A stretch of 42,119 nucleotides of DNA from Candidatus Endomicrobium labiotermitis (GTDB lineage: Bacteria > Elusimicrobiota > Endomicrobiia > Endomicrobiales > Endomicrobiaceae): positions 1-42,119 of the forward strand of contig WRFE01000006.1 in the NCBI GenBank assembly GCA_009778965.1, given 5' to 3'. Each line of letters opens with the position of its first letter. Position 1 is the stretch's first letter. This document shows, piece after piece, positions 5,116 to 35,549 of the stretch. Position numbers and translations under genes: made by a program. The notes beneath the pieces are model-generated. The model was not told where the DNA came from. It searched no databases and saw nothing but the letters and a program-made list of their open reading frames with translations.

Positions 5116-5197
5116 AAACCTCAAAAAGTAAAAAATAACAATTAACAATTTAACGGCAAAAACGCGATTTTTATTGTTCTTTGTTATTTGCAAATTG

Positions 5198-12520: not shown

Positions 12521-12595
12521 GTCTTTGCGAGCGAAGCGCGGCAATCCATGTTATTTTAGAATGGATTGCTTCGTCATTTCATTCCCCGCAATGAC
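12521..12595. repeat. Composite palindromic repeat between trpF and trpB
   Basis: Two head-to-head half elements: the left reads GTCTTTGCGAG to GCAATCCAT, the right ATGGATTGCTTCGTC to CCGCAATGAC, separated by a short AT spacer. The right edge stops 4 bp from the trpF stop codon. The RNA would fold into a long imperfect hairpin inside the trp mRNA. Confidence 0.8.
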
Positions 12596-12599
12596 GTCG

Positions 12600-13208
12600 C
12601 TATGTTTTTCTCACTATATCGACTATTTTCTTTATCTTATCAAAATCTTTTACGCCATCTGTTTCAACACCGCTGCTTAAATCTATACAGTATGGGTTTA
12701 ATTTTAAAGCTTCCGAAATATTACCCATGCTTATTCCGCCGGCAAGAAAAAATGGTTTTTTATAATCCTTTATTAAATTCCAATCAAAAGACTGTCCGCT
12801 GCCGCCTCCAACCGAATCAAACAAAATATAATCGAAACTGCCCTGGATTGCTTCGTCAGCGCATTGCGCTTCCTCGCAATGACAGCCAAGTCGTATTGCT
12901 TTTATAATCGGTATATCTATTTTGTCTTTCAGATTTTTTATATACTCCGCGTCTTCTTCTCCGTGAAGCTGGACTAAATCTATAATTCCGCTCTTGTATA
13001 AATCAATTATATTTTCGATTGGCTCGTTTACGAATACCCCTACGGATTTTATATCTTTGTTTAACAAAGCTTTGAACTTCTCTGCGGCTTTAAAATCGAT
13101 TTTTCTTTTTACGCCCGCGAAAACAAATCCCGCAAAATCTGGTTTTGTTTCGTTTACGTATTTTATGTCTTCTTCTCTTTTAAGACCGCAGATTTTAATC
13201 TTACTCAT
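12600..13208 (-). CDS. trpF: Phosphoribosylanthranilate isomerase with an in-frame repeat insert
   Basis: A 202-residue TIM barrel isomerising phosphoribosylanthranilate to CdRP. Seen: KICGLKREEDI with the catalytic Cys, VQLHGEED, ILFDSVGGGSGQSFDW with the catalytic Asp, LAGGIS and IDLSSGVE. Residues about 108-122 (CHCEEAQCADEAIQ) do not look like TrpF. They are encoded by a dispersed repeat (12844-12883) lying where family members have the variable stretch between strands five and six. All catalytic and phosphate-binding segments are retained, so the enzyme is probably active. CGGAG precedes the ATG. A second repeat abuts the stop codon. Confidence 0.93.
   Translation of the reverse strand: MSKIKICGLKREEDIKYVNETKPDFAGFVFAGVKRKIDFKAAEKFKALLNKDIKSVGVFVNEPIENIIDLYKSGIIDLVQLHGEEDAEYIKNLKDKIDIPIIKAIRLGCHCEEAQCADEAIQGSFDYILFDSVGGGSGQSFDWNLIKDYKKPFFLAGGISMGNISEALKLNPYCIDLSSGVETDGVKDFDKIKKIVDIVRKT
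12844..12883. repeat. Dispersed ATTGC...GCAATGAC repeat inside trpF
   Basis: TGGATTGCTTCGTC to TCGCAATGAC, about 40 bp, the same family as the intergenic copies. It is read in frame as part of TrpF without disrupting the reading frame. Confidence 0.85.
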
Positions 13209-18002: not shown

Positions 18003-21000
18003 TTATTCTACTATTATCTCTACTCTTCTGTTTTTCGCTCTGCCTGCCGCTGTCGCGTTTGATTCTATCGGCTTAGTTTTTCCGTGTCCTATCTTTTCCA
18101 TCTTATCGGAATCTATTCCCAATTCTGCCAATTTATTATATACAGTTTCCGCTCTTCTCATTGATAACGCTTCATTATACTCATTTGTTCCTATTTCGTC
18201 AGTATGTCCTTCTACCGTTACTTTGATGTAATCCAATTTCCTTAACTCTCTTGCCATTCCGCCTACTGCTTTCTTTGCGTCCGGAGTTAAGTCAGCTTTA
18301 TCAAAATCAAATAATGCTCTTGTCAATCTGAATCCTTTCGCTTTCGGCTTTCCTTTCACTTCAATCAACTCTATTTCTTTACTCTTTTCTTTTTCTTTAA
18401 ACATTGTTATTTCATTTTCTACTTTTTCACTGCTTTCTTTCGCTTCCACAGAAAACTTTCCTGCTCTCTCTGCCGCTTCTTTCGCTAACCGCGCGGCTTC
18501 TTCCGCTTTCCCGGCTGCCTCGGATGCTTTCGCTGCAGCCAGCCTTGCTCTGCTTTCTCTTAACTGTTTTTCCGATTTAGTCAATCCTTCCGTTTCTTTT
18601 GCCGCTATAGTCGCCTTTTCCGCTGCCTCTTTGGCTGACTGCGCTGCATTTCCTGCTTTATCTGCCGCAAGTCCTGCTTTATTTGCGTCTTCTTTTGCTT
18701 TATTTGCCGCGTCTTTTGAACTTTCTATTGTTGTCGCGTTTTCGGCTTCTTTTGCGTGAACTTCTGCTTTTGCTGCCGCTTCCAATGCTTCTTTCAATGC
18801 TTCCTGCGCCATCTCATTATACTTATATGCTTCCCTTGATTCTTCTATAGCTTTCTTTTCCAACATTCCTTTCTTCGCGTTTCCAAATCTGTACCCTGCT
18901 CCCGCTTGTCCTGTTACCTGATTAAATCTCTCCGCTTTCTCATACGATCCCATCGCGAATACTTCTACTCCTTTCCATACATCCGCGCTGAATCCTATTT
19001 CCGCTTTTCCTGAAAATAAGTTATTTCCGGCACCGTATATTGTCATTTCTTCATCCAAATTATTCAACGTTGCCTTAAATATACCTTTGCTGCCTCTCAA
19101 ATTATATCTGGCTCCCAATTCTCCGTACCATCTCAATGCTCCTATCTCTTTTTCCGCTCTAAAGCCCGCTACTGCATTCAATATCTCAAACTGATTGTCT
19201 TTCACCGTCAGCACCGCCGCAGCGTTATCAAAACCTTTTTCTCTAAATCCGCTTGTCTTTATAAAGCTTCCGTCTAACCCTGCAAACGGACTTATGTTTG
19301 CTATATTACTTTCCAATATTTTGTAAAACGCTTCTACATTTGCATTGATATTCCAGCCGTCATAACTGCTTTCTGTCCAGGATTGAAGCAACGCTTGCTG
19401 TCTTTTCCCTTCATACTGCTGATATCCGCCGCTTAGTTCACCTCTAAATGTCCAATTTCCCTTAAAGCTTCCTAAATACAATCCGCCGCGATAATCATTT
19501 ATATCTATTATGTCATCCCACTGATGCGTATCGTGCTGGCCGCCGCTCAGGTAATATCCAATCATAAAGTTGCTGCTGTCGCTGTATTTTTCTAACCCTA
19601 ATATCATATAGCCGTTTCTTGCTTTAAAATCGCCGCTGTTAGAATCTTGTTCCATCTTATATTGCGAGCCATATATTCCCGCCCACAAATTATATCCCTC
19701 ATATCCGCTGTCTCTTCTGTCTAGAATTCTGTGATATGCCTGTCTTACCTGCTGACCGCTCATTAACAACGCATTTGCGTATATTCCTCCCGACACTTCT
19801 TCCATTACTCTCATTTTTCCTGCGTCGTCCATTGAGTCCATTGTTCCGATTATCTTTGATATATCGTTTATTTTATCAGCGTCTCCTCCTGCTGTTATAT
19901 TGTCTATTATTTTTGCTACTTCAGTATTATTATGATCTAAGCCGGGAATATTCAGATAATCCGTATTCGCGTTCTTCAAATGTAAAATTACGTTTTCCCC
20001 GTCTCTCTCAATCAATATTTCAAGCGACGGATACAATGTTTTGAGTTCACTATACATTCCGGTTAATCCGTTTGATTCCAAAACAGTGTATTGCTTATAT
20101 ATCTCAAATCCGCGTCTTAAATCCAAATCTATACGGCTTCCCGGATTTATCGTCGCAGTTCCGTGTACTTTCAGCATATCATTCCAAGGATCTATCGGAC
20201 TTTCTGATGTTCCTTCGTTTATTCTTATTGCCAAATCTCCGTTCTCAATATAGTTTCCGTTTATTGTCAAAACTCCAAATTTGTTTTCAGGCAGTCCGCT
20301 TGCATGTCCCGGTTTTACTATTCCGTTATTTGTCACATTTCCTGTTATTGCGCCTGTTCCGCTTAATATTGCAAAATTAGCTACTGTTAAATTTTGCGAA
20401 GCAAAATTACTTGTCAATATTTCTAATTCGCCGGCATTAATATAAGTATTATTTATATTTGATCCTGCTCCGGTTATTATTGCCTTACCTAATCCGTTTT
20501 TCGCAAAATCTCCGTCATTGCCAATTACATTTCCGCTTATAGTCACTGTCGCGGCGCTGATATCTAAATCTATTGTTGATGTATATGTAGACGCATATAT
20601 ATTATTTAACAATACAATATCCATACTGTTTGTAAGATTCAGCGTTCCGTTGTCAAAGTATATATCGCCGGTTCCTATTGTATAACTTGTTCTTGCTATT
20701 CCCTCATTTATACTCAATCTTCCGTTTATCGCGTTTACGTCGCTGTTTAATATCAATACTCCGTCTCCCGCCTTGGTTATTTCCGTATTATTGTTAGATG
20801 TTATAGCGTCCGACATTGTCATTGTACTGCCGGTTATATTCAAATTCAGCTCCGCGTACTCTTCCAAATGGAACGCATTTGTTACTCCCATCGCCGTATT
20901 TCCTGATATTTCCGTATCTTCCGTCTGCTCTATGTTTAATACTGCAAGTTCACTATCGGCTCCTTTCATAAATATTGCTCCGCCCAGTCCGTTTAATGCC

Positions 21001-24000
21001 TTGTTGTTTGTAAGCGTTATATTTTTCGTATTAACTGTTGAATCGGCTCCTATATATATCGCTCCGCCGCTGCTTCTTGCTATATTACCGATAAGCTCTG
21101 TTGTTGAACCGTTGAAATTTACATCTTTTCCTTCCAAATATAAAAATCCGCCGTTATTCGCCTGATTGCCTATCGCAGCTATATTCGCATCTCCAAAATT
21201 TAAATAAGAGCTATTGTCCCAGTAAACAACTCCGTTGCCGTTTGTTGAATTGTTATATTTAAACGCTATATTCTGCGCATTAAACGTTACACTGGAAACA
21301 TCTGTTAAATACAATACGCTGCCAGCAGAAGCTGCATTTGAACTAAACTCTATATTATTTGCAGTAAAACTCATACTTGACTGTTTTGCATATAGCACTC
21401 CACCATGACCATTAATAGCGTTTACACTGTTTGAACTGAAGATTATATTTCCAACCTTCGCTGTAAAACTCATTGTTGAATATTGAGAATATATTGCTCC
21501 ACCTTGCATTCCCGCGCTGTTTGAACTAAAAATTATATTCCGGTCTGCTGTAAAGTTCATTGACGATATATCTGCTGATATCGCTCCGCCGGAATTCATA
21601 ACCGCGGAATTTGAACTAAATATTATATCCCTGCCTGCGGTAAAACTCATTGATGATATATGTGCTGATATCGCTCCGCCAAAATTAGCACTGTTTGAAC
21701 TGAACATTATATCCCTGCCTGATGCAAAACATATTGTTGAAAAACCTGCTGATATCACTCCGCCAGCATTACCTGCATTATTTGAGCTAAAAGTTATATC
21801 TCCAACTGTCGTTGTAAAACTCATACTTGAACCATGTGCTGATATCGCTCCGCCACCCCAAGCACTGTTTGAACTGAATATTATGCTATTGGCATTGAAA
21901 CTCATTGTTGACTGCAATACATATATTGCTCCACCAAAACTAAAAGCATTACCGTTTGAATTGAATACAATATTATTGGCGTTGAAACTCATTGTTGACT
22001 GCAATACACATATTGCTCCACCAAGACCTGCATTGTTTGAACTGAATTCTATACTCTGTCCTTCAAAGTCAATTTCTGAATTAATCGCATATATAGCTCC
22101 ACCTTGCATCCCCACCCTGTTTGAATTGAACAATATATTATTAGATGTAAAGTTAATTGTTGATTGATATGAATATATTGCGCCACCACCAGCATTATTG
22201 GATTTATTATTTACGAAACTTACAGAATCTCCGTTAAATAATAAATTCGAACTTTCTGAATATATCGCTCCGCCGGAACTGTACGCTATATTTCCGATAA
22301 ATGACACTGACGAAAACGACATCAATCCACTATTATATACCGCTCCGCCCGATACCGCTGTGTTTGACGTAAATATTACATTTTCTATCATTACGTCTTC
22401 TAACGTTAAATTACCGCTGTTATTTATCACTCCGCCGTTTGCAGAATTTACAAAATTCTTAAATACCGCGTTTTGAATTGCAAGTTGTTTAGCGTCTAGT
22501 GTCATTCCTTTGTTCAAGAGTCCCGAAGAATTTATTGTATGCCCTTCCGCGTCTATCGTAAAGTTACTTCCTGTAGGCGCTAAAAACGGATCTTCATCTT
22601 CATCAAGAATTGCTTCTATATCCTGCCACAATGACAGTGTATTGCCCGATGTCTCCGCTTGATATAAAGCCACAAAAGTGTTCCACGGTAATGCTCCGTA
22701 AATAAGCCAGCCTATGTAGTCACCCTGTAAACCGCTCCACTCAAAGCGATAGCCGTATTTATCTCCGCCTGATATGTTGCCTATCGTAAATATTCCGCTT
22801 GCCCAATCCGCCGACATTATTGCCGTTGAACTTCCTACTACGCCCAATGTCACCGTCGTTACATGCAGTTTGCTTTGGTCTGTCAGCGTTGTAGTTGTCG
22901 TTCTTATAAACGTTGTTGACGCTCCGGTTCCGCCCGCAAGCCAATCCACATTTACGCCTAATGTTCCATTTGTCATATTAAGTTTATTTGCATAAGCGCT
23001 AGTAGCGAAATATACACCTCCGCCTTGTATTGCTAATTCGCCCGTTATATTCGCTCTTGAACCTGATGAAAAATATACATTGCCGCTTTGGTTAGTAAAT
23101 ACTCCGCCTATGTTATTTATCGAACCAAAATTAAAATAAACATTCCCGCTGTTTGTTTTATTAATATTTCCTGTTCCTTCTATTCCGCCATTAAATATTA
23201 CGTTTCCTGCTCCGCTAAAGTTTAGAGTCGCTCCCGACGCGTTAAATATATCTCTTCCTGCTAAAGCAGTGTTGCCTATAAATATTACGCTGCTGCCTGC
23301 GTTCGGCATAAAATTAATCGTACCTGTATTATATATTGCTCCGCCGCTCGATGCCGCCACATTCATATTAAACACTGCCGATGTTATGCTTGATACTCCT
23401 GTGTTATACAACGCTCCGCCTGCATTGCTTGACGCGTTCATATAAAATGTCGATGAACTTAATGTTATAGCCCCCGCATTATATATTGCGCCGCCTCCGA
23501 GCGTTGCTCCCGTTGACCTGTTAAACGCAAAATATGCCGATATACTCGAGTTTATTACTCCCGATGCATTGTATATAGCTCCGCCGCTCGTCGCCGTATT
23601 TGTCGTAAATATTACATGTCCCAATGTTATTAACGAACCTGCCGCCATATTATATATCGCTCCGCCAAGATTTGATCTGTTCTCTCTGAATGTCGATGAC
23701 AAAAGCGTTACTGCTCCGTTACTATTATTATGCAATGCTCCGCCTTGATTAGTCGCGCTATTTCCTACAAATGTCGATGACAACAACGTCACTGCTCCAT
23801 TCTCATTATACAACGCTCCGCCTTGACTGGTTGCATTATTACCTGTAAACGTCAAATGCGTTGTAGATGAGGTTATTATACCGTTAGCATTCCTCATTGC
23901 TCCGCCGTACCTAGTCGCAGTATTGCTTGTAAAATTTATTATACTTCCGCTTTCTATTTCAATTACCGCTACACCATTCCATCCGTTGTATATAGCTCCG

Positions 24001-27000
24001 CCGTCACCTGCCTGATTGAAACTAAATACGTTGTTTGAACCGCTCTCAAATTTTATATTGCCCGACCATTCATTCAATATTGCTCCGCCACGGCTGCCCG
24101 TCGCCGCATTTGCCGTATTTAACGTAAACATTGTTTCATTTCTAAAATTTACTTTTCCGCTTCCCGCGTTATATATCGCTCCGCCGCCGACACTTGTCGA
24201 TGTCGCGCTATTTGAACTAAATATTACTTTTTCCAAATTTATCGTCGCAGATGTTCCATTATTGTATATCGCTCCTCCGCTTCCTCCGTTTAATGCCGTA
24301 TTCATATAAAATGTCGCTGAAGACAGCGTTACTGTTCCCGCATTATTTATTGCTCCGCCTCCGTCATTTACTCCTGCTCCGGTCGATCTATTAAACGAAA
24401 ACATTGCTGATGCGCTTACTCCAGTTGAATTGATTACTCCGCCTGAAACATTGCGTATCGCACCGCCGCTCGCCGCAGTATTTGTCGCAAATATGACTTT
24501 TTCCATATATATATTTGCAGAAGCTCCGGTATTGTATATTGCTCCGCCCTGCAGCGCTGTGTTCTCTCTAAATGTCGAAGACGCTATATTCACTCTTCCT
24601 AAATTATATATCGCTCCGCCTCCGTTGGCTCCGGTTGTTGCCGTCGCTCTATTAAACTCAAATATTACTGACGCAATTGCTCCAGTTGAATTTATTACTC
24701 CGTTTGCGGCATTATATATCGCTCCGCCGACTGCTGCAGTATTTGTCGTAAATATTACTTTTTCCAAATATATATTTGCCGAAGCTCCGCTATTATATAT
24801 CCCGCCGCCCTGCAATGCCGTATTCTCTCTAAATGTCGATGACGCCATACTTATTGTTCCTAAATTATATACCGCTCCGCCTCCGATTGTTCCCGTCGCT
24901 CTATTAAACTCAAACAACGCAGATATTGTCGAGTTTATTACTCCCGAATTATTGTATATCGCTCCGCCAGAAGTCGCCGTATTTGTCGTAAATATTACAT
25001 TCGTCAAATTCACTCTTGAACCCGCCGCAATATTATACAGCGCTCCGCCTTGGTTTGACATGTTCTGCCTAAATGTCGATGACAGTAACGTTACCGTTCC
25101 GTTATCATTATGCAATGCTCCGCCTTGACTGACCGCATTATTGCCGGTAAACGTCAACTCCGTTGTCGATGATATTATTATCCCATTAGCATTCCTTATC
25201 GCGCCGCCGCTCAATGCCGCCGTATTGCTTGTAAAATTCATTATGCTTCCGCTTTCTATTTCAATTACGGCCACTGCCCAATACCCATTGTATATCGCTC
25301 CGCCTTCACTTGCTCTATTAAAACTAAACATGTTGTTTGAGCCGCTTATAAATTTTATATTGCCGTTATAATCGTTTAATATCGCTCCGCCTCTGTTGGA
25401 CGCAGCATTTAACGTAAACAAATTATTATTCGTAAAGTTCATTTTCCCGTCACTGTTAAATACGGCTCCGCCGCCAAAGCCGTATTCGCCTGTCGACGTC
25501 GCAGTGTTTGAACTAAACGTCACGTTATTCAAATTCAATATTGCCTGTATTCCGCTGTTATATATTGCTCCGCCGTTGCCGCCGTTTGTTGCAGTGTTCG
25601 TCGTAAAACTTACTGACGAAATTGTCATATAACCCGCATTTAATACCGCTCCGCCGCCGATTGCGTTTGATGATGACGTATTTAAAGAAAATACTATTCC
25701 CGAACCTGATATCGTAACTGTCGAGTTTGCAGCATTATACAACGCTCCGCCATTTTCTAATGCTGAATTGCCTATAAATGATATTCCCGTTCCCGCTATT
25801 GTTACTGTTGAGCCTATATTATATATCGCCCCACCGCTTCCGCCTGACGCTGAATTACCTGTAAACGTCGTACCTGCCATTATATTCACCGTGCCGCTGC
25901 TGTTATTAAATATCGCGCCGCCACTCGACATTGCCGTATTGTATTCAAACTTTGTTCCGGTAAGTCTTACATACCCGGTTGCAAGCGTATTAAATATCGC
26001 TCCGCCGTTACCCTGATTTTGCGCGCTGTTGCTAGTGAATGTTACCGCGCCCAAATCCATATACCCTCTGTTGTTTATCGCTCCGCCGCCTGACGTCGCA
26101 TTTGACGTGCTTCTGTTATTCGTAAACTTTACAAGATTAGCGTTTGTAAATGTTATTGTTGAACCTGTATCATTATATATCGCTCCGCCCGCAAATGCGT
26201 AGTTGCCCCTGAATTCTGCAGTTGAATTAAACGTATAACTTGTATTTGCCACTACAAATATTGCGCCGCCGACATTCGCGCTGTTGGTTGTAAAATACAC
26301 CGCATTGTTAAATACTTGTCCGCTTTGCAAATACAATGCTCCGCCTTGATTGCCCGCGCTGTTTAGCGTAAAAGACGATACAACGCTGTCAAAATGTATT
26401 TTTGTATTCGCGCCGCCATATATCGCTCCGCCTTGCAAACCAGCGCTGTTTGAACTGAATTCTATACTTTCGCCCGCAAATTCAATTTCCGAATTAACCG
26501 CAAATATCGCACCGCCTTGATTGCCCGCACTGTTTGAACTGAATTTTATATCTCCTCTTGCCGCGCTGTAAAAACTCATCGGCGCGTCATCTACATATAT
26601 CGCGCCGCCTTGGCTATTCACTCTGTTTCCTGTAAAATAGGCTTCGTTAAATATAGCTTCTCCTCCGATTATATATATAAATCCGCCGCTGTTTGAAGCC
26701 CTGTTGTTCTCCGCGTATAATTTAGTATTGCTGAAATCTACTGTACCGTCATTGCCCAACGCTATTACTCCTCCGTACGCCGCTGTGCTGTTTGCCATAC
26801 TCATATTAGTAGTGGAACCCCAGAATCTAAATATCGTTTCGCCTTCTCCGTACAGAGATCCTCCGTATGTCGCATAATTATCTGCTATTGTCATATCATT
26901 CCACGTCATATCTATTATTTTTGTTCCGCTTGAATATAAAAATCCTCCGTACTCCGCCATATTTTCTATTGCATAAAATTTCGCGCTGCCAAAATTTATA

Positions 27001-30000
27001 TTGGAATTTCCGCTCAAATATAATGCTCCGCCATGAACTCCCGCCGTATTCTTTCTAAATGTCGCCGTACCGGTAAATACATAAGTTTGATTTGCCAGCG
27101 AGTATATCGCTCCACCGCTTCCCTGCGCGCGGTTGAACTCAAATATCGTTATTCCGTCAAATGTTATGCTTGTGGTCGCAACAGCGTATATAGCTCCGCC
27201 GGAATTCGCGGTATTTGAACTAAATAATATATTTCCGCCTGTTGCTTTGAAACTGGCCGTAGAACCGTTTCCTAAATATACTGCTCCGCCATTGCTGGTT
27301 ATTACATTTGAACTAAATACTATGTTTCCGCCTATTGCGCTGAGAGTTATCAAAGAGCCGCCTTGGATGTTTATCGCTCCGCCACCAGAACCACGGGCAG
27401 AATTTGAAGAGAATATTATATCTCCGTTTGTAGCGCTAAAACTTATTGTAGCGCCGCTCATTGCAAATACTGCGCCGCCGCTGGTTGAAGCATCGTTTGA
27501 ATTAAATATTATACTGCCTCTCAAAACGGAAAAAGTCATTGATGAGTTTGAATCGGCGTATATTGCACCGCCTTGTGAACGATTCCAATTTGAATAAAAC
27601 AATATATTACCGTCTGTTGCTGCGAAAGTCATTTTTGAACCGCTCGCGTTTATTGCTCCGCCTCGCGAGTTTGTTGTATTCGAACTAAATATTATACTTC
27701 CTCTTGATACTTCAAAATCTATTTTCGAATTATTCGCATATATCGCTCCGCCATCACCACCGGATGAGTTTGTACTAAATATTATATTTCCGTCTGTCGC
27801 CTTAAAACTCATTGTTGATTGATTTGTTGTATATATCGCTCCGCCATAGCTTCCTTGACGAGTTGAGGTATTTGAACTAAATAATATATTACCGTTTGTT
27901 ATGTCAAAATTTACTTGTGATCTGGTTGCGTTTATAGCTCCGCCGCTGGTTAATCCTGTTGAGGTATTTGAAACGAATGATATAAACCCTCCGGCAACGT
28001 TAAAATTCACAGTTGAAAAATAAATATACATCGCTCCGCCATTGTTGCCGCCTTCTGATTTATTTCCCTCAAAACTTATTTCTCTGCCGGCAAACGATAA
28101 ATATGAAGCGGTAGAATGTATTGCTCCGCCGGAACCGCTTGATATATTATTTATAAATGACGTATTGCCGCTAAATATTGCCGTACTTCTTTCTAAATAT
28201 ATCGCCCCGCCGCCTGTACCATATGCTATATTTCCGGTAAATGTTGCCGTTGAATTAAATGTATACCTTGTATTTGCCGTAACAAATATTGCGCCGCCGG
28301 CTCCGGGGGTAAGACTCATTCCTCCGCTCATTACGTAATTACCGGTAAAAGATGCTTCATGATTAAATATTGTCTCTCTCTGAAGCAAATACAAAGCGCC
28401 GCCCCTGTCCGCCACGCTGTTTGACGTAAATTCTGTAATCCCGTCAAAATATACATTATTTACAAATGATGGGGTACGTACCGCTCCGCCCATATTTTCA
28501 TTAAATATTATTCTGCCGTTTTCAGCGCGAAAACTTACTGTTGACGCTGAATTTAAAGATACCGCTGCTCCGCCCGTGTTTGAATCAAATACTATATTTC
28601 CGTTTGAAACAACAAAAGTTACCGAACTATTATTTTGTATATTTAGCGCCCCTCTTAAATTTGAACTGAATACTATGTTTCCGGTCGAAACTTCAAAACT
28701 CATTCTCGAATTGTTTACATTTATCGCTCCGCCCATACCGTCATCAGTTTCATTTGAATCAAATATTATGCTTCCTCTTAAAACTTTAAACTCCATTCTA
28801 GACCCTTGCGCGTTTATCGCTCCGCCGCCGCCTGCATAACTGCCCAGATTATTAGCTTTGTTTTCGCTGAATACTATATTTCCGGTTGATACTTCAAAAG
28901 TCATTATTGAACCGCTTGCGTATATCGCTCCGCCGCCAGAATTATCACCCATACGCCTGGCAGAGTTTTCGATGAATGATATATTACCGCTTAAAACAGC
29001 AAAAGCCATTGTTGATTGACTCGCGTATATTGCTCCGCCGCCGTTGCTCACAGTAACAGCGCCGCCATATTTGTTATTACCAATAAAATTTATTTCACTT
29101 CCGGAAAATAAAACATAAGAACCGGCTGAATGTATCGCTCCGCCGGACCAGCTAGAAATATTGTTTACAAAACTAGTATTTCCTTTAAAAGCCGCGCTGC
29201 TGTTTTGTAAATATATCGCTCCGCCGGAACTTGCGGCAATATTCCCATCAAATCTTGCCGAAGGACCGTTAAAACTTATTGTTGAATTCAGAACATGCAG
29301 TGCGCCGCCGGTTACGCTTCTTGCTTCGTTATCCTGCATCAAAACATTACCGTTAAAATCCATTTTTCTGGCGCTCAAATACAAAAATCCGCCGTTATTC
29401 GCTTTATTGCCTATTGCAGTTACATTCGAATTTCCGAAACTAAAATATGAATTACCGTCCAAAAAAATCACTCCATTCCCGTTTCTTGAATTATTGTAAT
29501 TAAACACAGCTTCATTCGTATTAAATGTCACACTTGAATTTGTTAAATACATCGCTCCGCCGCTGCTTGCTGCAATATTTCCTATAAATGTTGCTGAAGA
29601 ACCGTTAAAACTCATTGTTGAATTTTCAACATATACAGCTCCGCCAACACCGCTTCTTGCTTCGTTATCTTCAATAAAGACATTACCGTTAAAATCTATT
29701 TTTTTGCCGGTCAAATACAGAAATCCGCCGTTATTGGCTTGGTTGCCTGCTGCCGTTACATTTGCTGCTCCAAAATTAAAATAAGAACCGTTATCCCAAT
29801 AAATGACTCCGTCCCCGTCTGTTGAATTATTGTAATTAAACACCAAATCTGTCGCATTAAACGTTATATTTGAATTCCGTAAATACAATGCCCCGCCTCT
29901 TACGGCAATGTTTGAACTAAATTCTATCTTGTCAGCTTTAAAACTCATTATTGAATCATCCGCGCTTATCGCTCCGCCGAGATCTGCACTATTTGAAATA

Positions 30001-33000
30001 AAAACTATACTGCCTCTTGCAACATCAAAATCCATCTTTGAACTCAATGTGGTTATTGCTCCGCCTCCGTAATACGGAAACATACCTGGCGGCACAATAT
30101 CCGCGCTGTTTGAACTGAAAATTATACTGCCGCTTGAAACTTTAAACTCCATTATTGATTGAAAAGAAAATATCGCTCCGCCGTCATAAGCACTCTCGTT
30201 TGAATTGAATACTATACTGCCGATTGAAACATTAAAACTCATTGTTGAGTCTTGCACAGATATCGCTCCGCCGCTGCTGCCTGCGGCGGTGTTTGAACTG
30301 AAAATTATATCTCTGCCTGCTGTAAAATTTGTTGACGACAAATATGAGAATAGCGCTCCGCTGGAATCATTTAACGAGCGGTTTAAACTGAAAATTATAT
30401 CTCTGCCTGCGGTAAAACTCGCTGTCGAATAACCTACAGAAACCGCGCCGCCGACATTGGAACTGAAGATTATATTACCGTTGTTGCTTCTTGCACTAAA
30501 ATCTATTATTGAATTACGCACCCATATTGCTCCGCCATAATTCGCGCTGTTTGAACTGAATAGTATATTGCCGTTTGTCGCGGTAAAACTCATTATTGAG
30601 CCATTTATTGCATTTATCGCTCCGCCGTCAACCCCGCTGTTTGAACTGAAAACTATATCTCTTGCCGCAGTAAAATTCATTATTGAGTTATGCGCTGATA
30701 TTGCTCCGCCGCCATCTTGTCGTTCTCTGTTTGAACTAAAAATTATATCTCTGCCCGCGCTAAAACTCATTGACGACAAATCTGATCTTATCGCTCCGCC
30801 ATAGCTTCCTGCTATGTTTGAACTGAAGATTATATCACCTGCTGCAGCGGTAAAACTCATTGTTGACCTATACGAATATATCGCTCCGCCGCCTCTGGTA
30901 TTATTGTCCGCACTATTTCCCGTAAAAGTTATCGTTGAACCGTCGAAATTAACTACAGATGCTGATGAAAATATAGCGCCGCCGTATTCGGAAGCGCTGT
31001 TGTTTATAAAACTTGTTCTGCCTGTAAAAGCTGCCGTAATATTGGTTATAATTAACGCTCCGCCGTTCACGTTCGTGTTACTCGTAAAAATTACGGTCGC
31101 GCCGATATTTAATACCGAGCTGCTTACCCTTACTCCGCTGCTGTTAGTTACACTCCATGTTCCGTTGGCAAACGTGTAATTTGCCTGATTTATCGTTGTT
31201 GTACCCGCCGTCTGGCTGAACAACCCTTGTATATAATTATTACTGCTTATGTACAATTCTCCGGTTCCGGTTTTATTTATTGTATTATTATTGCTTCCTA
31301 CATATATACCGCCTTCCAATCTTATCTGATTGTTTACAGCGTGAAAATTTACTATTGAATTATTCGCGTATATATCGTTGCCGTATGTCCCGGTATTTCC
31401 GGTAAATAACACTCGTCCAGTTGTACTGTTAAATGTTATCGTAGAATTATCTACCGCCACCGCTGCGCCGCTTGACGCCCTGTTTCCGCTGAACACACTG
31501 CTGCTTATTGTCATTGAGGATCTCAACAAATATAATGCTCCGCCTTTGCCGCCTGCAGTATTTGAGTTGAAAGTTATATTGTCAAAACTCATTCTTGCAG
31601 AACCTGCATATATCGCTCCGCCGGAATCAGCCGCTTTGTTTCCCGTAAACGTTGTACTTGAACCGTTAAAATTAACTACTGTCCCTGATAAATACAACGC
31701 ACCGCCCGAACCGCTTCTTGCTTCATTGTCTGACATCAAAACATTGCCGTTAAAATTTATTGTCCCTCTGCTTTCTAAATACAGAAATCCGCCGTTATTG
31801 GCTTGGTTGCCTATTGCCGTTACATTCGCGTTGCCAAAACTCCAAGAAGAGCTATTATCCCAATAAACAACACCGTTACTGCTTGTTGAATTATTATAAT
31901 TAAACACAAGATTATTAGTATTGAATGTTAGGTGTGAATACATTAAATATAATACGCCGCCGGTTGCTGCCGTATTTGAACTAAATTCTATCTTGTCTGC
32001 TTTAAAGCTCATTATTGATTGGTCTGCATATATCGCTCCGCCGCGGCTTGTAGCGCTATTTACGCTGTTTGAGCTGAATATTATATTTCCGCTTGATACG
32101 ATAACAAAATTCATTGTTGACTGCACTACATGTATAGCTCCGCCATACGTTACTGCACTATTTGAGCTAAATATTATATTTCCGCTTGATACGATAAAGT
32201 CAATTATTGATGGTCCGACGCCGGTATAATTACTTGCATGTATCGCTCCGCCGTAACTGCCTATTGCGCTGTTTGAACTGAAGACTATATTCCCGCTAGA
32301 GACTCTAAAATCTATTTTAGAACCAAATGTTGCCATCGCTCCGCCGCCGCTTCCTGCCGTATTTGAACTAAATATTATATTACCGATTGAGATGCCAACG
32401 TCCATTTTTGAACCGTCTCGCACCCATAGCGCTCCACCGGCATTGCCTGCTCTATTCAAATCAAATATTATATTGCCGCTTGAGACACTAAGACCTACTT
32501 CTGACCAGCTGTCTACATTTATCGCTCCGCCAAAGCCACTAGTAGTACTCGCACTGTTTGAACTAAACACTATACTCCCTCTTAAAACACTAAACTTCAA
32601 TGTTGTTGAACTCGTAGCCCCTATTGCTCCGCCATAACCAAAACTGCTGTTTGAACTGAAGATTATATTATCGCTTGAGACGATAACAAAACTCATTGAT
32701 GAACGGCTTGCATATATTGCTCCTGCATTGTTTGCACTGTTTGAACTGAATACTATATTTCCGTTTACCGGATTAAAACTCATTGTTGATCCCAGCGCAT
32801 ATATTGCTCCGCCGGTTGCTCCCGCCGTATTTCCTGTAAACGTTGTACTTGAACCTTTAAAATTAACCACTGTCCCTGATGAATATATCGCTCCGCCGGA
32901 GCCGTTTATTGCTTGATTGCCGGACATAAAAACATTACCGTTAAAATCTATTGTACCTTTACGTACTAAATACAAAAACCCACCGTTTCTTGCCTGGTTG

Positions 33001-34319
33001 CCTATAGCAGTTATATTCGCATTTCCAAAATTTAGAAAGGAACTATTGTCCCAATAAATAACTCCGCCTCCAGTCGTTGAATTGCTCGTTGAATTATTGT
33101 AATTAAATACAAGATTATCAGTATTAAATGTTAAGCTTGAAGAATTTGTTAAATATAATGCGCCCCCGGATGCAGCAGTATTTGATGTGAACTCTATTCT
33201 TCCGTCTACAGCTGTAAAACTCATTGTTGAACCGCTTAAATATATCGCACCTCCATTACCGTTTCCACCTGTTATACTGTTGTTTGAACTGAAGATTATA
33301 TTGCCGGTCGTTGCTTTGAAACTCATTGATGATGAATCGGTTGCAACTATCGCTCCGCCTGTGCCTGCACTATTTGAACTAAAGATTATGTTTCCGTTTG
33401 TCACGGTAACAGTCATTGTTGACCGAGTTGCATTTATCGCTCCGCCATTAACTCCTGTGTTTGAACTAAAAATTATACTGCCGCTTGATACACTAATCTC
33501 CATTATTGAACTGCCTACATATATTGCTCCGCCTCCGCCGCCGCCAAGTCGCGTTCTGTTTGAATTGAATGTTATGCTTCCGTTTGTTACGATAAAACTC
33601 ATTATTGAATTAGTTGCATATATCGCACCGCCATTGCCATTATTGTCTGCGCTGTTTGAATTGAATGTTATGCTTCCGTTTGTTATGCTAAAACTTATAT
33701 TTGAATTAGTTGCATATATCGCACCGCCGCTGGTTCCTGATGCACCTGTAGTTGTTGCGCTATTTGAACTGAAGATTATATTACTGCCAGATGTTGCGGT
33801 AAAATTCATTGTTGAATAAGTTGCATATATCGCTCCGCCGGAACTATCTGCGCTGTTTGAACTGAAGATTATATTATTGCCGGATATTGCGATAAAACTC
33901 ATTGTTGACCTAGTTGCATATATCGCTCCGCCGTAGGTAGATTTTATAAAGTTTGAAAAACTTATTCCATTTATTTCAGAGTTTGAATTGGTAAAAGAGA
34001 ATCCTGCCCTGAGATTATTTCCGGAAATAGTCCGCATAATTCCGTTGTTTCTTATGATAATATTCTTATTTGAAACCGAATTAATATTAGCATCCATCGT
34101 TATATCGGATGTTACGGTAATAGTATCTCCGCTTGCCGAATCTGTTATTGCCGTATTTAATAATAAAGGCGTATTTACAGAATGGTCTGCAGCATATACT
34201 TTAACTCCGGACATACACATCAAGGCTGAAAAAATCAAAAATGAAAACAATAATTTTCCGGATTGCCTCAGATTGCGGCTCAAGTCCGCAATGACTAATT
34301 TTTGTAATAATTTTTTCAT
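18003..34319 (-). CDS. Giant Pmp-like autotransporter adhesin with C-terminal OmpA domain
   Basis: 5438 residues, uninterrupted. Signal peptide at residues 1-43 (cleavage near VYA), then about 4300 residues (130-4450) of repeats with GGAIY and FxSN, the two motifs of Chlamydia Pmp passengers, one unit per roughly 30-35 residues. Non-repeat linkers lie at about 985-1085 and 3707-3957. An autotransporter-associated stretch (4540-4790, with LGKAIITGAG and VLTINGNY) leads to a barrel at about 4843-5145 ending GAGYRF. An Ala/Glu/Lys-rich coiled coil follows (5148-5325), then an OmpA/MotB domain (5330-5438) with VEGHTDEIGTNEYN and KNRRVEI. The repeat block should form a surface beta-helix, and the OmpA part should hold peptidoglycan. 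GGAG lies 5 nt before the ATG. Adhesin role is inferred. Confidence 0.9.
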   Translation of the reverse strand: MKKLLQKLVIADLSRNLRQSGKLLFSFLIFSALMCMSGVKVYAADHSVNTPLLLNTAITDSASGDTITVTSDITMDANINSVSNKNIIIRNNGIMRTISGNNLRAGFSFTNSNSEINGISFSNFIKSTYGGAIYATRSTMSFIAISGNNIIFSSNSADSSGGAIYATYSTMNFTATSGSNIIFSSNSATTTGASGTSGGAIYATNSNISFSITNGSITFNSNSADNNGNGGAIYATNSIMSFIVTNGSITFNSNRTRLGGGGGGAIYVGSSIMEISVSSGSIIFSSNTGVNGGAINATRSTMTVTVTNGNIIFSSNSAGTGGAIVATDSSSMSFKATTGNIIFSSNNSITGGNGNGGAIYLSGSTMSFTAVDGRIEFTSNTAASGGALYLTNSSSLTFNTDNLVFNYNNSTSNSTTGGGVIYWDNSSFLNFGNANITAIGNQARNGGFLYLVRKGTIDFNGNVFMSGNQAINGSGGAIYSSGTVVNFKGSSTTFTGNTAGATGGAIYALGSTMSFNPVNGNIVFSSNSANNAGAIYASRSSMSFVIVSSDNIIFSSNSSFGYGGAIGATSSTTLKFSVLRGSIVFSSNSASTTSGFGGAINVDSWSEVGLSVSSGNIIFDLNRAGNAGGALWVRDGSKMDVGISIGNIIFSSNTAGSGGGAMATFGSKIDFRVSSGNIVFSSNSAIGSYGGAIHASNYTGVGPSIIDFIVSSGNIIFSSNSAVTYGGAIHVVQSTMNFVIVSSGNIIFSSNSVNSATSRGGAIYADQSIMSFKADKIEFSSNTAATGGVLYLMYSHLTFNTNNLVFNYNNSTSSNGVVYWDNSSSWSFGNANVTAIGNQANNGGFLYLESRGTINFNGNVLMSDNEARSGSGGALYLSGTVVNFNGSSTTFTGNKAADSGGAIYAGSARMSFDNITFNSNTAGGKGGALYLLRSSMTISSSVFSGNRASSGAAVAVDNSTITFNSTTGRVLFTGNTGTYGNDIYANNSIVNFHAVNNQIRLEGGIYVGSNNNTINKTGTGELYISSNNYIQGLFSQTAGTTTINQANYTFANGTWSVTNSSGVRVSSSVLNIGATVIFTSNTNVNGGALIITNITAAFTGRTSFINNSASEYGGAIFSSASVVNFDGSTITFTGNSADNNTRGGGAIYSYRSTMSFTAAAGDIIFSSNIAGSYGGAIRSDLSSMSFSAGRDIIFSSNRERQDGGGAISAHNSIMNFTAARDIVFSSNSGVDGGAINAINGSIMSFTATNGNILFSSNSANYGGAIWVRNSIIDFSARSNNGNIIFSSNVGGAVSVGYSTASFTAGRDIIFSLNRSLNDSSGALFSYLSSTNFTAGRDIIFSSNTAAGSSGGAISVQDSTMSFNVSIGSIVFNSNESAYDGGAIFSFQSIMEFKVSSGSIIFSSNSADIVPPGMFPYYGGGAITTLSSKMDFDVARGSIVFISNSADLGGAISADDSIMSFKADKIEFSSNIAVRGGALYLRNSNITFNATDLVFNYNNSTDGDGVIYWDNGSYFNFGAANVTAAGNQANNGGFLYLTGKKIDFNGNVFIEDNEARSGVGGAVYVENSTMSFNGSSATFIGNIAASSGGAMYLTNSSVTFNTNEAVFNYNNSRNGNGVIFLDGNSYFSFGNSNVTAIGNKANNGGFLYLSARKMDFNGNVLMQDNEARSVTGGALHVLNSTISFNGPSARFDGNIAASSGGAIYLQNSSAAFKGNTSFVNNISSWSGGAIHSAGSYVLFSGSEINFIGNNKYGGAVTVSNGGGAIYASQSTMAFAVLSGNISFIENSARRMGDNSGGGAIYASGSIMTFEVSTGNIVFSENKANNLGSYAGGGGAINAQGSRMEFKVLRGSIIFDSNETDDGMGGAINVNNSRMSFEVSTGNIVFSSNLRGALNIQNNSSVTFVVSNGNIVFDSNTGGAAVSLNSASTVSFRAENGRIIFNENMGGAVRTPSFVNNVYFDGITEFTSNSVADRGGALYLLQRETIFNHEASFTGNYVMSGGMSLTPGAGGAIFVTANTRYTFNSTATFTGNIAYGTGGGAIYLERSTAIFSGNTSFINNISSGSGGAIHSTASYLSFAGREISFEGNKSEGGNNGGAMYIYFSTVNFNVAGGFISFVSNTSTGLTSGGAINATRSQVNFDITNGNILFSSNTSTRQGSYGGAIYTTNQSTMSFKATDGNIIFSTNSSGGDGGAIYANNSKIDFEVSRGSIIFSSNTTNSRGGAINASGSKMTFAATDGNILFYSNWNRSQGGAIYADSNSSMTFSVLRGSIIFNSNDASTSGGAVFAMSGATISFSATNGDIIFSSNSARGSGGGAINIQGGSLITLSAIGGNIVFSSNVITSNGGAVYLGNGSTASFKATGGNILFSSNTANSGGAIYAVATTSITFDGITIFEFNRAQGSGGAIYSLANQTYVFTGTATFRKNTAGVHGGALYLSGNSNINFGSAKFYAIENMAEYGGFLYSSGTKIIDMTWNDMTIADNYATYGGSLYGEGETIFRFWGSTTNMSMANSTAAYGGVIALGNDGTVDFSNTKLYAENNRASNSGGFIYIIGGEAIFNEAYFTGNRVNSQGGAIYVDDAPMSFYSAARGDIKFSSNSAGNQGGAIFAVNSEIEFAGESIEFSSNSAGLQGGAIYGGANTKIHFDSVVSSFTLNSAGNQGGALYLQSGQVFNNAVYFTTNSANVGGAIFVVANTSYTFNSTAEFRGNYAFAGGAIYNDTGSTITFTNANLVKFTNNRSTSNATSGGGAINNRGYMDLGAVTFTSNSAQNQGNGGAIFNTLATGYVRLTGTKFEYNTAMSSGGAIFNNSSGTVNIMAGTTFTGNSASGGSGGAIYNIGSTVTIAGTGISFIGNSALENGGALYNAANSTVTISGSGIVFSLNTSSSNAIGGGAVLNAGYMTISSVSFTTNTATNGGNGGAIYNSGIQAILNLNNVTFSSNTATSTGEYGFGGGAVFNSDGKMNFTNNNLFTLNAASNRGGAILNDYNGNIKFISGSNNMFSFNRASEGGAIYNGYWAVAVIEIESGSIMNFTSNTAALSGGAIRNANGIIISSTTELTFTGNNAVSQGGALHNDNGTVTLLSSTFRQNMSNQGGALYNIAAGSRVNLTNVIFTTNTATSGGAIYNNSGVINSTISALFEFNRATGTIGGGAVYNLGTISMASSTFRENTALQGGGIYNSGASANIYLEKVIFTTNTAAVGGAIYNAANGVINSTGAIASVIFEFNRATATTGANGGGAIYNLGRVNIASSTFRENTALQGGAIYNTGASANIYMEKVIFATNTAASGGAIRNVSGGVINSTGVSASAMFSFNRSTGAGVNDGGGAINNAGTVTLSSATFYMNTALNGGSGGAIYNNGTSATINLEKVIFSSNSATSTSVGGGAIYNAGSGKVNFRNETMFTLNTANAATGSRGGAILNEWSGNIKFESGSNNVFSFNQAGDGGAIYNGWNGVAVIEIESGSIINFTSNTATRYGGAMRNANGIITSSTTHLTFTGNNATSQGGALYNENGAVTLLSSTFVGNSATNQGGALHNNSNGAVTLLSSTFRENRSNLGGAIYNMAAGSLITLGHVIFTTNTATSGGAIYNASGVINSSISAYFAFNRSTGATLGGGAIYNAGAITLSSSTFYMNASSNAGGALYNTGVSSITSAVFNMNVAASSGGAIYNTGTINFMPNAGSSVIFIGNTALAGRDIFNASGATLNFSGAGNVIFNGGIEGTGNINKTNSGNVYFNFGSINNIGGVFTNQSGNVYFSSGSRANITGELAIQGGGVYFATSAYANKLNMTNGTLGVNVDWLAGGTGASTTFIRTTTTTLTDQSKLHVTTVTLGVVGSSTAIMSADWASGIFTIGNISGGDKYGYRFEWSGLQGDYIGWLIYGALPWNTFVALYQAETSGNTLSLWQDIEAILDEDEDPFLAPTGSNFTIDAEGHTINSSGLLNKGMTLDAKQLAIQNAVFKNFVNSANGGVINNSGNLTLEDVMIENVIFTSNTAVSGGAVYNSGLMSFSSVSFIGNIAYSSGGAIYSESSNLLFNGDSVSFVNNKSNNAGGGAIYSYQSTINFTSNNILFNSNRVGMQGGAIYAINSEIDFEGQSIEFSSNNAGLGGAICVLQSTMSFNANNIVFNSNGNAFSFGGAIYVLQSTMSFNANSIIFSSNSAWGGGAISAHGSSMSFTTTVGDITFSSNNAGNAGGVISAGFSTICFASGRDIMFSSNSANFGGAISAHISSMSFTAGRDIIFSSNSAVMNSGGAISADISSMNFTADRNIIFSSNSAGMQGGAIYSQYSTMSFTAKVGNIIFSSNSVNAINGHGGVLYAKQSSMSFTANNIEFSSNAASAGSVLYLTDVSSVTFNAQNIAFKYNNSTNGNGVVYWDNSSYLNFGDANIAAIGNQANNGGFLYLEGKDVNFNGSTTELIGNIARSSGGAIYIGADSTVNTKNITLTNNKALNGLGGAIFMKGADSELAVLNIEQTEDTEISGNTAMGVTNAFHLEEYAELNLNITGSTMTMSDAITSNNNTEITKAGDGVLILNSDVNAINGRLSINEGIARTSYTIGTGDIYFDNGTLNLTNSMDIVLLNNIYASTYTSTIDLDISAATVTISGNVIGNDGDFAKNGLGKAIITGAGSNINNTYINAGELEILTSNFASQNLTVANFAILSGTGAITGNVTNNGIVKPGHASGLPENKFGVLTINGNYIENGDLAIRINEGTSESPIDPWNDMLKVHGTATINPGSRIDLDLRRGFEIYKQYTVLESNGLTGMYSELKTLYPSLEILIERDGENVILHLKNANTDYLNIPGLDHNNTEVAKIIDNITAGGDADKINDISKIIGTMDSMDDAGKMRVMEEVSGGIYANALLMSGQQVRQAYHRILDRRDSGYEGYNLWAGIYGSQYKMEQDSNSGDFKARNGYMILGLEKYSDSSNFMIGYYLSGGQHDTHQWDDIIDINDYRGGLYLGSFKGNWTFRGELSGGYQQYEGKRQQALLQSWTESSYDGWNINANVEAFYKILESNIANISPFAGLDGSFIKTSGFREKGFDNAAAVLTVKDNQFEILNAVAGFRAEKEIGALRWYGELGARYNLRGSKGIFKATLNNLDEEMTIYGAGNNLFSGKAEIGFSADVWKGVEVFAMGSYEKAERFNQVTGQAGAGYRFGNAKKGMLEKKAIEESREAYKYNEMAQEALKEALEAAAKAEVHAKEAENATTIESSKDAANKAKEDANKAGLAADKAGNAAQSAKEAAEKATIAAKETEGLTKSEKQLRESRARLAAAKASEAAGKAEEAARLAKEAAERAGKFSVEAKESSEKVENEITMFKEKEKSKEIELIEVKGKPKAKGFRLTRALFDFDKADLTPDAKKAVGGMARELRKLDYIKVTVEGHTDEIGTNEYNEALSMRRAETVYNKLAELGIDSDKMEKIGHGKTKPIESNATAAGRAKNRRVEIIVE
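23450..24260 (-). repeat. Duplicated passenger segment, copy B
   Basis: Protein order here (FSSNSATST, GGAILN, VFSFN, VAVIEIESGSI, TFTGNNATSQGGAL, TLLSSTFREN, NSSISAYFAFNRSTG) repeats that of 24820-25550. It has one extra unit of about 30 residues. Confidence 0.75.
24820..25550 (-). repeat. Duplicated passenger segment, copy A
   Basis: Partner of 23450-24260. The two share unusual strings such as VAVIEIESGSI and TVTLLSSTFR that do not occur elsewhere in the protein. Confidence 0.75.
34261..34294. repeat. Dispersed GATTGC...GCAATGAC repeat inside the adhesin signal peptide
   Basis: GATTGCCTCAGATTGCGG to CCGCAATGAC, read in frame as VIADLSRNLRQS, residues 9-20, between the basic start and the hydrophobic core of the signal peptide. 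Related to 6863-6900 and 34463-34506. Confidence 0.8.
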
Positions 34320-34508
34320 TTTTTCTCCGTTTTACTTTTTTATAATTGGATCTCTTGAAAAACCCCGTTCTGTGTCACCCTTTGAACAGGATTTTTCAGG
34401 AAACTCAATTTTAAAAAACAAACAAAACCATAAAACTAACCAAAAACGACATTTTCACGCCATGGATTGCCGCGTCGGGATACTATGCATTCCTCCTCGC
34501 AATGACTG
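34320..34508. other. Gap between the response-regulator gene and the giant adhesin gene
   Basis: It contains the adhesin ribosome site (GGAG before ATG 34319), an AT-rich stretch with TATAA near 34340 that could be a -10 box, and a dispersed repeat at 34463-34506. No convincing -35 or operator was found, so whether the adhesin has its own promoter is open. Confidence 0.4.
34463..34506. repeat. Dispersed TGGATTGC...GCAATGAC repeat downstream of the response regulator
   Basis: TGGATTGCCGCGTCGGGA to CTCGCAATGAC, just beyond the response-regulator stop codon on the minus strand. Confidence 0.75.
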
Positions 34509-35549
34509 CTAAAAAAGCTTTTCCAGAACTGTTTTTTTAACTGTTTCGTCAACTTGACGCTTTGGCATGGCAAAAGCTATTTTGATGATAAAATCCGGCG
34601 TTAAATCTTTGAATTTGCAGATTTTTGTATGTTTGTTGGCGTTGGAGGTTTCTATTTCGGAAATATCAGATGTATCTGGAAATACTATAAAGCTTTGTAT
34701 AAAAGGTCTGTAAATTTCTTCGTATTTTGTAAATCCCGTTTCTTTTAATATTTTTTCTATTCTTTTGCTTACCTGTTTAAACTGATTTTCCGATTGTTCA
34801 AACAAATTTCTTCTTTTTGTGGAAATTTTTTCAATTCCGTTGGCAAAAACTCTCATAGGCTCATTTACCCCGCCGGAAATTTTAGCGTTAGGGAAATATT
34901 TTGTTTCAAATACCATAACCGCAAAAGGAAGCGGAGCAACGGTAAAAGCCAAAACGTCTATTTCCTGACCGTTTATAACTATATTTTCTTTCGGCTCATA
35001 CGGTTTTGGCATAAAAACTTTTGTCATTTCGGAAAGTCTTTGAAGAACCTCTTTTTCAAAAAGTCCGCCGGCTCCTTCGCTGTCCTGCGATGAAAGCATT
35101 TCCGAAAGAATCGCGTTTTCGGATTCAAGCTTTTCAAGTTTTTTGGCTTTATCATCTTTTGAATTTAAAGCTTTTTTTATTTTTATTATAAGTTCGGTTT
35201 CCGTGACCGGTTTAGACATAAAGTCTATTATATAATCGCCTGCTTTTTCGGAAACTTCCTGACCGTAAGTTTTTTCCATGGCGCTTAAAAGTATAACCGG
35301 CAAAGACGGAGAATATTTTTTTATGTCCGGCAAAATATCAAGCCCGGTTTCGCCCATACCAAAATGTATGTCCAGAATAAGCAAATCAATTTTGTCGGGA
35401 TCGTTTAAAAGATATTTTTTTACTTCAATTGTGTTTGAAAAATTGAGGATTTCTACATTTTCGAAATGTTTCTTTATTGTTCTTGCCAAAGAGGAACGGA
35501 CATTTGAGTCATCATCAGCCAAAGCTATTGTTTTTTTAGTGTCGGTCAT
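34509..35549 (-). CDS. Response regulator fused to a NERD-like nuclease domain
   Basis: 346 residues. Residues 1-125 form a receiver domain: acidic pocket Asp12-Asp13-Asp14, phospho-acceptor Asp60 (LLILDIHF), Ser89 and Lys113 before Pro. A short coiled coil (about 131-155) follows. Residues 161-220 read GLFEKEVLQRL, then EIDVLAF, then VMVFETKYF. These give Glu167, Asp198 and Glu215-x-Lys217, the layout of a NERD domain in the PD-(D/E)XK nuclease fold. The rest (220-346) is alpha/beta with an FIVFPDTSDI strand. No DNA-binding HTH is seen, so the output may be nucleic-acid cleavage or binding rather than transcription control. It overlaps the kinase gene by 4 nt. The domain call is from motifs only. 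Confidence 0.75.
   Translation of the reverse strand: MTDTKKTIALADDDSNVRSSLARTIKKHFENVEILNFSNTIEVKKYLLNDPDKIDLLILDIHFGMGETGLDILPDIKKYSPSLPVILLSAMEKTYGQEVSEKAGDYIIDFMSKPVTETELIIKIKKALNSKDDKAKKLEKLESENAILSEMLSSQDSEGAGGLFEKEVLQRLSEMTKVFMPKPYEPKENIVINGQEIDVLAFTVAPLPFAVMVFETKYFPNAKISGGVNEPMRVFANGIEKISTKRRNLFEQSENQFKQVSKRIEKILKETGFTKYEEIYRPFIQSFIVFPDTSDISEIETSNANKHTKICKFKDLTPDFIIKIAFAMPKRQVDETVKKTVLEKLF

Follow-up and report, generated by a model that had tools for sequence, protein, structure and literature searches.

Textbook type Va autotransporters stop at the barrel, and an even-stranded (12-stranded) autotransporter barrel ends in the periplasm. Chlamydial Pmps combine GGAI/FxxN repeats in a β-helix passenger with an autotransporter barrel, as does the giant autotransporter described here, but Pmps end at the barrel and the giant continues beyond it. 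The OmpA proteins of Escherichia coli and Acinetobacter and OprF of Pseudomonas share with the giant a barrel that has an internal insertion signal and is followed by a periplasmic OmpA-like domain; unlike the giant, they have an 8-stranded barrel and no exported passenger. Inverse autotransporters (intimin, invasin, and YeeJ) likewise hold a barrel, a surface passenger, and a peptidoglycan-binding domain in one chain. Their order is LysM–barrel–passenger with an N-terminal periplasmic LysM domain of a different wall-binding fold, whereas in the giant the order is reversed and the domain is of the OmpA type. YeeJ, an inverse autotransporter (type Ve), binds peptidoglycan (PMC5595812).

Wall-binding parts have also been described for trimeric autotransporters. 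In Vpar_0041, Vpar_0100, and Vpar_1664 of Veillonella parvula, the YadA anchor is followed by a C-terminal SLH motif, and the proteins were proposed to bind peptidoglycan (PMC5491611). As in the giant, a barrel is followed by a predicted periplasmic wall-binding domain in one chain, within a single lineage. The Veillonella proteins are three trimeric type Vc proteins with SLH, whereas the giant is a monomeric type Va protein with an OmpA domain, belongs to a 16-copy family, and has a trans form in relatives. AtaA of Acinetobacter sp. Tol 5 (type Vc) has a separate, co-transcribed peptidoglycan-binding protein, TpgA (PMC8151025, PMC13082670). AtaA is, as the giant would be, a very large autotransporter linked with peptidoglycan by a wall-binding part in the periplasm, but AtaA has a trimeric barrel and a separate partner, whereas the wall-binding domain of the giant is fused in cis. 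As cited in the AtaA–TpgA literature, a 2026 preprint by Dorison et al. deals with C-terminal periplasmic extensions of trimeric autotransporters. In the main text of a 2024 comparative genomics paper on Endomicrobiaceae, the word "autotransporter" does not occur (PMC11257099). In a literature search that lay largely outside subscription journals, we found no description of type Va autotransporters with OmpA tails; the general idea of self-anchoring has precedents in other autotransporter classes, such as the Veillonella SLH proteins.

A single open frame of 5438 codons

The window is a stretch of 42,119 nucleotides from Candidatus Endomicrobium labiotermitis (contig WRFE01000006.1). The giant gene occupies positions 18003–34319 of the minus strand and encodes 5438 aa, from an ATG start to a single terminal stop. 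All 5438 codons are open in this frame, and the remaining five frames of the stretch contain 88–510 stops; the coordinates and the single protein given in the preliminary description were correct. A frameshift that splits off the OmpA part was looked for and is absent, as barrel and OmpA domain lie in one open frame. We rejected a frameshift or assembly artefact as the origin of the fusion because the frame is open, 16 tailed proteins occur in the genome, and the closed genome G002 also has fusions.

The signal peptide (residues 1–43, MKKLL...SGVKVYA; 34191..34319, minus strand) was assigned from the translation, with the cleavage site judged by eye. It is longer than those of the paralogues (N-termini such as MKKLLLAVAFLMCISGVKAYAQ) owing to a repeat-derived stretch after MKKLL. 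A palindrome-like dispersed element, TCATTGCG...GCAATC, is found at window positions 34271–34294, 34465–34505, 12846–12882, and 12564–12594 (four copies, compared with 0.01 in shuffled sequences). The copy at 34271–34294, within the signal-peptide coding region, is the apparent cause of the greater length of this signal peptide.

Directly upstream of the giant gene lies a response-regulator gene (34509..35549, minus strand; PF00072, E 2e-11), preceded by a gene for a histidine-kinase-type ATPase (35546..37561, minus strand; PF02518, E 9e-9). This pair (34509–37561), on the same strand as the giant gene, is possibly its switch. Several antisense frames of 100–230 aa are present on the plus strand inside the giant gene (window positions 19736–33819), and one frame opposite the gene has few stops (88). 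The antisense frames are probably not genes, because this low stop number is probably due to repeated codons.

Structure of the passenger and the barrel

The passenger (residues 44–4837; 19809..34190, minus strand) consists of Chlam_PMP/POMP repeats that are predicted to form a parallel β-helix. In profile searches, PF02415 (Chlam_PMP) matched along the passenger with E values of 1e-92 and 2.4e-43, and TIGR01376 (POMP_repeat) gave 15 passing stretches in the N-terminal half of the giant. The motif GGA[ILV] occurs 107 times, compared with 1.7 times in shuffled sequences (maximum 7), and its spacing is mostly 27–31 residues. A 420-residue passenger segment modeled by AlphaFold2 from the single sequence is a regular solenoid with three strands per rung (pTM 0.87). 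The Pmp-like passenger with GGAI/FxxN repeats that had been read from the letters is borne out by these matches, and the giant belongs to the Pmp-type passenger family by its Chlam_PMP/POMP repeats. The protein had also been called a giant adhesin, a putative role to which the Pmp-type passenger is the one pointer.

The passenger is followed by an autotransporter barrel (residues 4838–5145; 18885..19808, minus strand) composed of a pore helix and 12 strands, the last strand being GAGYRF (residues 5140–5145). Pfam PF03797 (Autotransporter) matched residues 4878–5122 (E 3.4e-29). Residues 4838–5438 were modeled by AlphaFold2 from a 30-row alignment of the giant and 29 relatives. The order in the model is a pore helix, 12 barrel strands (block pLDDT mostly 85–94), three long helices, and an α/β OmpA fold; the mean pLDDT is 84, and with a pTM of 0.55 the model does not fix how barrel, helices, and OmpA domain lie relative to one another. 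A Foldseek search of the barrel against the PDB returned the autotransporters EstA (E 9e-19), NalP (TM score 0.86 by target length), AaaA, AIDA-I, and EspP. The barrel at residues 4843–5145 and the even strand number of the preliminary description are thus both recovered.

The giant has the 12-stranded PF03797 barrel with pore helix, the Sec signal peptide (by eye), and the N-terminal β-helix passenger that define type Va. It departs from this type in that the chain does not stop at the last barrel strand, whereas 13 complete tail-less paralogues do stop there. The barrel is of the monomeric PF03797 type and not of the trimeric YadA type. Nor does the giant have the layout of an inverse autotransporter, because its barrel is C-terminal to the passenger and no LysM match was found. 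Beyond the last strand, 293 residues follow, close to the earlier estimate of about 290. The internal BAM signal that had been suspected is accounted for by QAGAGYRF, which precedes the chain end by these 293 residues and fits the general BAM pattern polar-x-G-x-x-aromatic-x-aromatic.

Linker and OmpA domain

The tail begins with an Ala/Glu/Lys-rich linker (residues 5146–5327; 18339..18884, minus strand; 24% Ala, 18% Glu, and 17% Lys over 188 residues), in which helices are predicted at about 5148–5194, 5198–5242, and 5248–5312. The spacer had been described as a coiled coil. Its helical nature agrees with the AlphaFold2 model, but three helices are predicted instead of a single rod, so the linker may fold back rather than form one straight rod. 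Among the paralogues, the linkers are between about 49 and 458 residues long, which makes a fixed spacer length unlikely.

The last part is an OmpA-family peptidoglycan-binding domain (residues 5328–5438; 18006..18338, minus strand). PF00691 matched residues 5336–5431 over the full model (E 6e-22), and relatives of the domain in the PDB include OprF, YfiB, and Pal. Foldseek matched the tail with PA0833, YfiB, OmpA, OprF, and 3td5, an OmpA-like domain bound to an m-DAP pentapeptide. The giant therefore has a complete PF00691 domain with an OmpA-like fold in the same chain as the barrel, as had been stated; PF03797, PF00691, and PF02415 all matched in this chain, and the structure prediction of the C-terminal part gave barrel, helices, and OmpA fold in one model.

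The Asp in the motif GHTD and the Arg in LSxxRA (Asp5374 and Arg5389 in the giant) have a spacing of 15 and are invariant in 30 of 30 aligned sequences from many genera. In Acinetobacter baumannii OmpA, the pair D271/R286, with the same spacing of 15, was found to bind diaminopimelate by calorimetry (PMC6572160). The diaminopimelate-binding pair is present in the giant, where it was equated with the A. baumannii pair by motif and spacing and not by residue-level superposition.

Proposed mechanism

Here, we propose a mechanism for the assembly of the giant based on its predicted domains. Sec would export the chain, and BAM would recognize the internal last barrel strand and insert the 12-stranded barrel. 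The Pmp-type β-helix passenger would be threaded to the cell exterior, and the C terminus would remain in the periplasm owing to the even strand number. The helical linker and the OmpA domain would fold there, and the latter would bind peptidoglycan stem peptides via the conserved Asp/Arg pair. A single polypeptide would then couple a very long surface fiber to the sacculus, so that pulling force would reach the wall and not the outer membrane alone.

Distribution of fused tails

The genome of the window (G000), from an Endomicrobium of the termite-gut type in the phylum Elusimicrobiota, comprises 1.89 Mb in 107 contigs and is 99.97% complete. Profile searches found 30 autotransporter barrels and 29 OmpA domains in it. 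Sixteen of the 30 autotransporters, the giant and 15 others, have barrel, linker, and OmpA domain in one frame; of the 14 without a tail, 13 stop 20–33 residues beyond the region matched by the Pfam barrel model, and the remaining one is truncated at a contig end. The complete paralogues thus fall into two clear classes, tail-bearing and tail-less. Because the genome is fragmented, several paralogues lack the N-terminal side, but the barrel–tail junction is unaffected. The 14 tail-less autotransporters in the same genome indicate that the anchor is presumably dispensable for secretion as such.

In the same genus, the closed genome G002 (1,588,979 bp) has a fused tail on 13 of 23 barrels, and the corresponding numbers are 4 of 12 in G003 and 0 of 5 in G001. 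In a 150-genome sample of the phylum, full-length barrel–OmpA matches were found in many genera of Endomicrobiaceae, and 19 of the 41 loci taken from named genomes had the tail. Genus g8, which has reduced genomes and is probably the intracellular Endomicrobiellum, gave barrel–OmpA matches in only about three of 27 genomes, and genome G025 had no autotransporter barrel at all. In the Elusimicrobiota sampled, few barrels of the giant's type occur beyond Endomicrobiaceae, and among 16 non-family Elusimicrobiota genomes checked only G080 had fused tails. A one-off fusion was rejected, as more than half of the autotransporters in the genome and many genera of the family share the architecture.

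Named genomes scanned at first with a barrel of the window's type yielded no relative. A plasmid search for the barrel–OmpA order in other bacteria gave 672 records that matched one part and none that covered 80% of the query, a weak negative. One contig labeled Christensenellaceae (L143) encodes a barrel of the giant's family, probably as a result of misbinning in the assembly concerned.

Exchange and loss of tails

Three states of the tail occur in this lineage: it is fused to the barrel, encoded by an OmpA gene of its own immediately downstream, or missing. The separate gene beside an autotransporter was found in G002, G080, and G090 and not in the window, and these trans pairs resemble AtaA–TpgA. 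In G002, two giants of 7051 and 8163 aa (L081 and L082), both longer than the protein of the window, have a 74-residue tail without OmpA, and 13–15 nt after each gene a separate frame encodes a signal-peptide-bearing OmpA protein. The two 74-residue tails are identical at 73 of 74 positions, compared with 62% identity between the barrels. The barrel of the 7051-aa protein is identical at 280 of 281 positions (99.6%) to that of a 3290-aa fused-OmpA protein of the same genome, and the two sequences diverge right after ...NFCGITHKE. The near-identical barrels with different tails indicate that a whole tail was exchanged behind an unchanged barrel. Judged from these sequences, the tails are exchangeable cassettes that begin right after the last strand. 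The preliminary description contrasted the fused form with a separate OmpA/Lpp tether as a different solution; the fused form is real, but the contrast was too sharp, because the lineage uses both, even on near-identical barrels.

In G080, which belongs to another Elusimicrobiota family, a 2829-aa autotransporter has a classical end (...GVAYTW), and an OmpA lipoprotein gene (MKKLLVLTSSVLLAGC...) starts about 22 nt downstream. The fused tails of two neighboring autotransporters are 69–71% identical to this lipoprotein, one of them aligning with it from the lipidated Cys onward. The identity of about 70% is direct evidence at the sequence level that adjacent OmpA genes are the source of fused tails, or the reverse, and it points to gene fusion.

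The occurrence of the same domain as a separate gene in G002, G080, and G090 would also suit a fusion that merely ties expression together, the tail being freed by proteolysis as a soluble periplasmic OmpA protein. We regard this as highly improbable, because no common junction motif was seen and the linkers are diverse yet begin directly after the last strand. The trans partners adjoin the largest autotransporters of G002, and surface AtaA is lowered when its peptidoglycan-associated partner TpgA is absent (PMC8151025). Both observations could be explained if the tail mainly helped assembly: as a handle in the periplasm, it would slow or guide the insertion of the barrel and the export of the passenger in very large proteins, and binding to the wall would come second. 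This explanation is unlikely: proteins with a tail (575 to 5438 aa) and without one (845 to at least 2074 aa) overlap broadly in size, and the invariant diaminopimelate-binding Asp/Arg pair would be superfluous for such a handle.

Barrels and tails have discordant histories within the genome of the window as well. L024 and L036 are 27% identical in the barrel and 72% in the OmpA domain, and L034 and L036 are 80% and 53% identical, respectively; barrels with only 25–27% identity can thus carry OmpA tails that are up to 72% identical. On a tree of 92 barrels, tail state requires at least 16 changes, 10 of which are forced by well-supported branches. A single origin followed by vertical descent is not supported by these tail-state changes and discordant identities. 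In a tail-less paralogue (L023:286–420, minus strand), an early stop is followed, in a different frame, by the remaining last residues of an OmpA domain, which indicates that tails also get lost. L120 (3862–4701), where a barrel with a 270-residue tail is followed by an OmpA frame without a signal peptide, is a split or decaying fused form.

Other tails were also observed. L118 (2687–3562), L121, L124, L132, and L146 share a different conserved periplasmic tail of about 280 residues ending in ...LRLNPNHQKAKIALSKLRSSGQ, with weak TPR matches in the L118-type tails (TPR_2, E 2e-5, below the cut-off). In L144 (3871–6900) and L145 (3823–6852), a charged sequence of coiled-coil character follows the barrel for more than 1000 residues and runs off the retrieved stretch; this sequence of L144 had no Pfam match. 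As a tentative extension, which we consider possible at best, the autotransporter barrel of Endomicrobiaceae could be a general outer-membrane socket with variable passengers outside and interchangeable periplasmic tails inside. These tails would be fused OmpA, a short adapter with separate OmpA, a TPR-like tail, and coiled coils exceeding 1000 residues. Junction recombination might then switch between wall-anchored and free fibers, and the anchored coat might replace Lpp tethers.

Wall anchoring as the probable role of the tail

Between paralogues, dN/dS (Nei–Gojobori) is 0.07–0.27 for the OmpA part and 0.13–0.36 for the whole tail, low values which indicate that the tails are kept functional by purifying selection. 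A murein sacculus and peptidoglycan synthesis are conserved in most of Endomicrobiaceae (PMC11257099). Lpp was not found in the genome of the window by a search that detected the E. coli positive control.

The lack of a detected Lpp and the 16 tail copies could mean that, in a bacterium that has no Braun lipoprotein, the tailed proteins chiefly tether the outer membrane to the wall, with envelope integrity as the main job and the passenger secondary; the SLH-bearing OmpM takes over the tether role of Lpp in Negativicutes (PMC5491611). Such a role is very improbable, as the genome also encodes separate OmpA/Pal-sized proteins (183–223 aa), tailed autotransporters are few or absent in some relatives (e.g. 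G001), and a passenger of nearly 4800 residues is not needed for a tether alone.

Anchoring of the fiber to the wall is the likeliest role in view of the invariant Asp/Arg pair, purifying selection, repeated recurrence, the sacculus of the family, and the lack of a detected Lpp. The giant is probably a self-anchored type Va autotransporter that links surface fiber, outer membrane, and peptidoglycan, in which peptidoglycan binding, force transmission, and adhesion are the putative functions. The architecture, its fold and recurrence, selection on the tail, and the exchange of cassettes are computed results, and the wall anchoring foreseen in the preliminary description is the best reading of them.

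A fused cell-wall anchor on type Va barrels runs through a whole bacterial family. Such an anchor bears on how huge surface fibers resist pulling, and the near-identical G002 barrels with fused and separate anchors are a natural matched pair for addressing fiber strength. The fused tails also bear on how BAM copes with an insertion signal that lies inside the chain and is followed by a folded domain. The presence of the tail in about half of the autotransporters of the genome, together with the swapping of modules, suggests that huge surface fibers in these bacteria are fastened to the cell wall on its inner side of the outer membrane.
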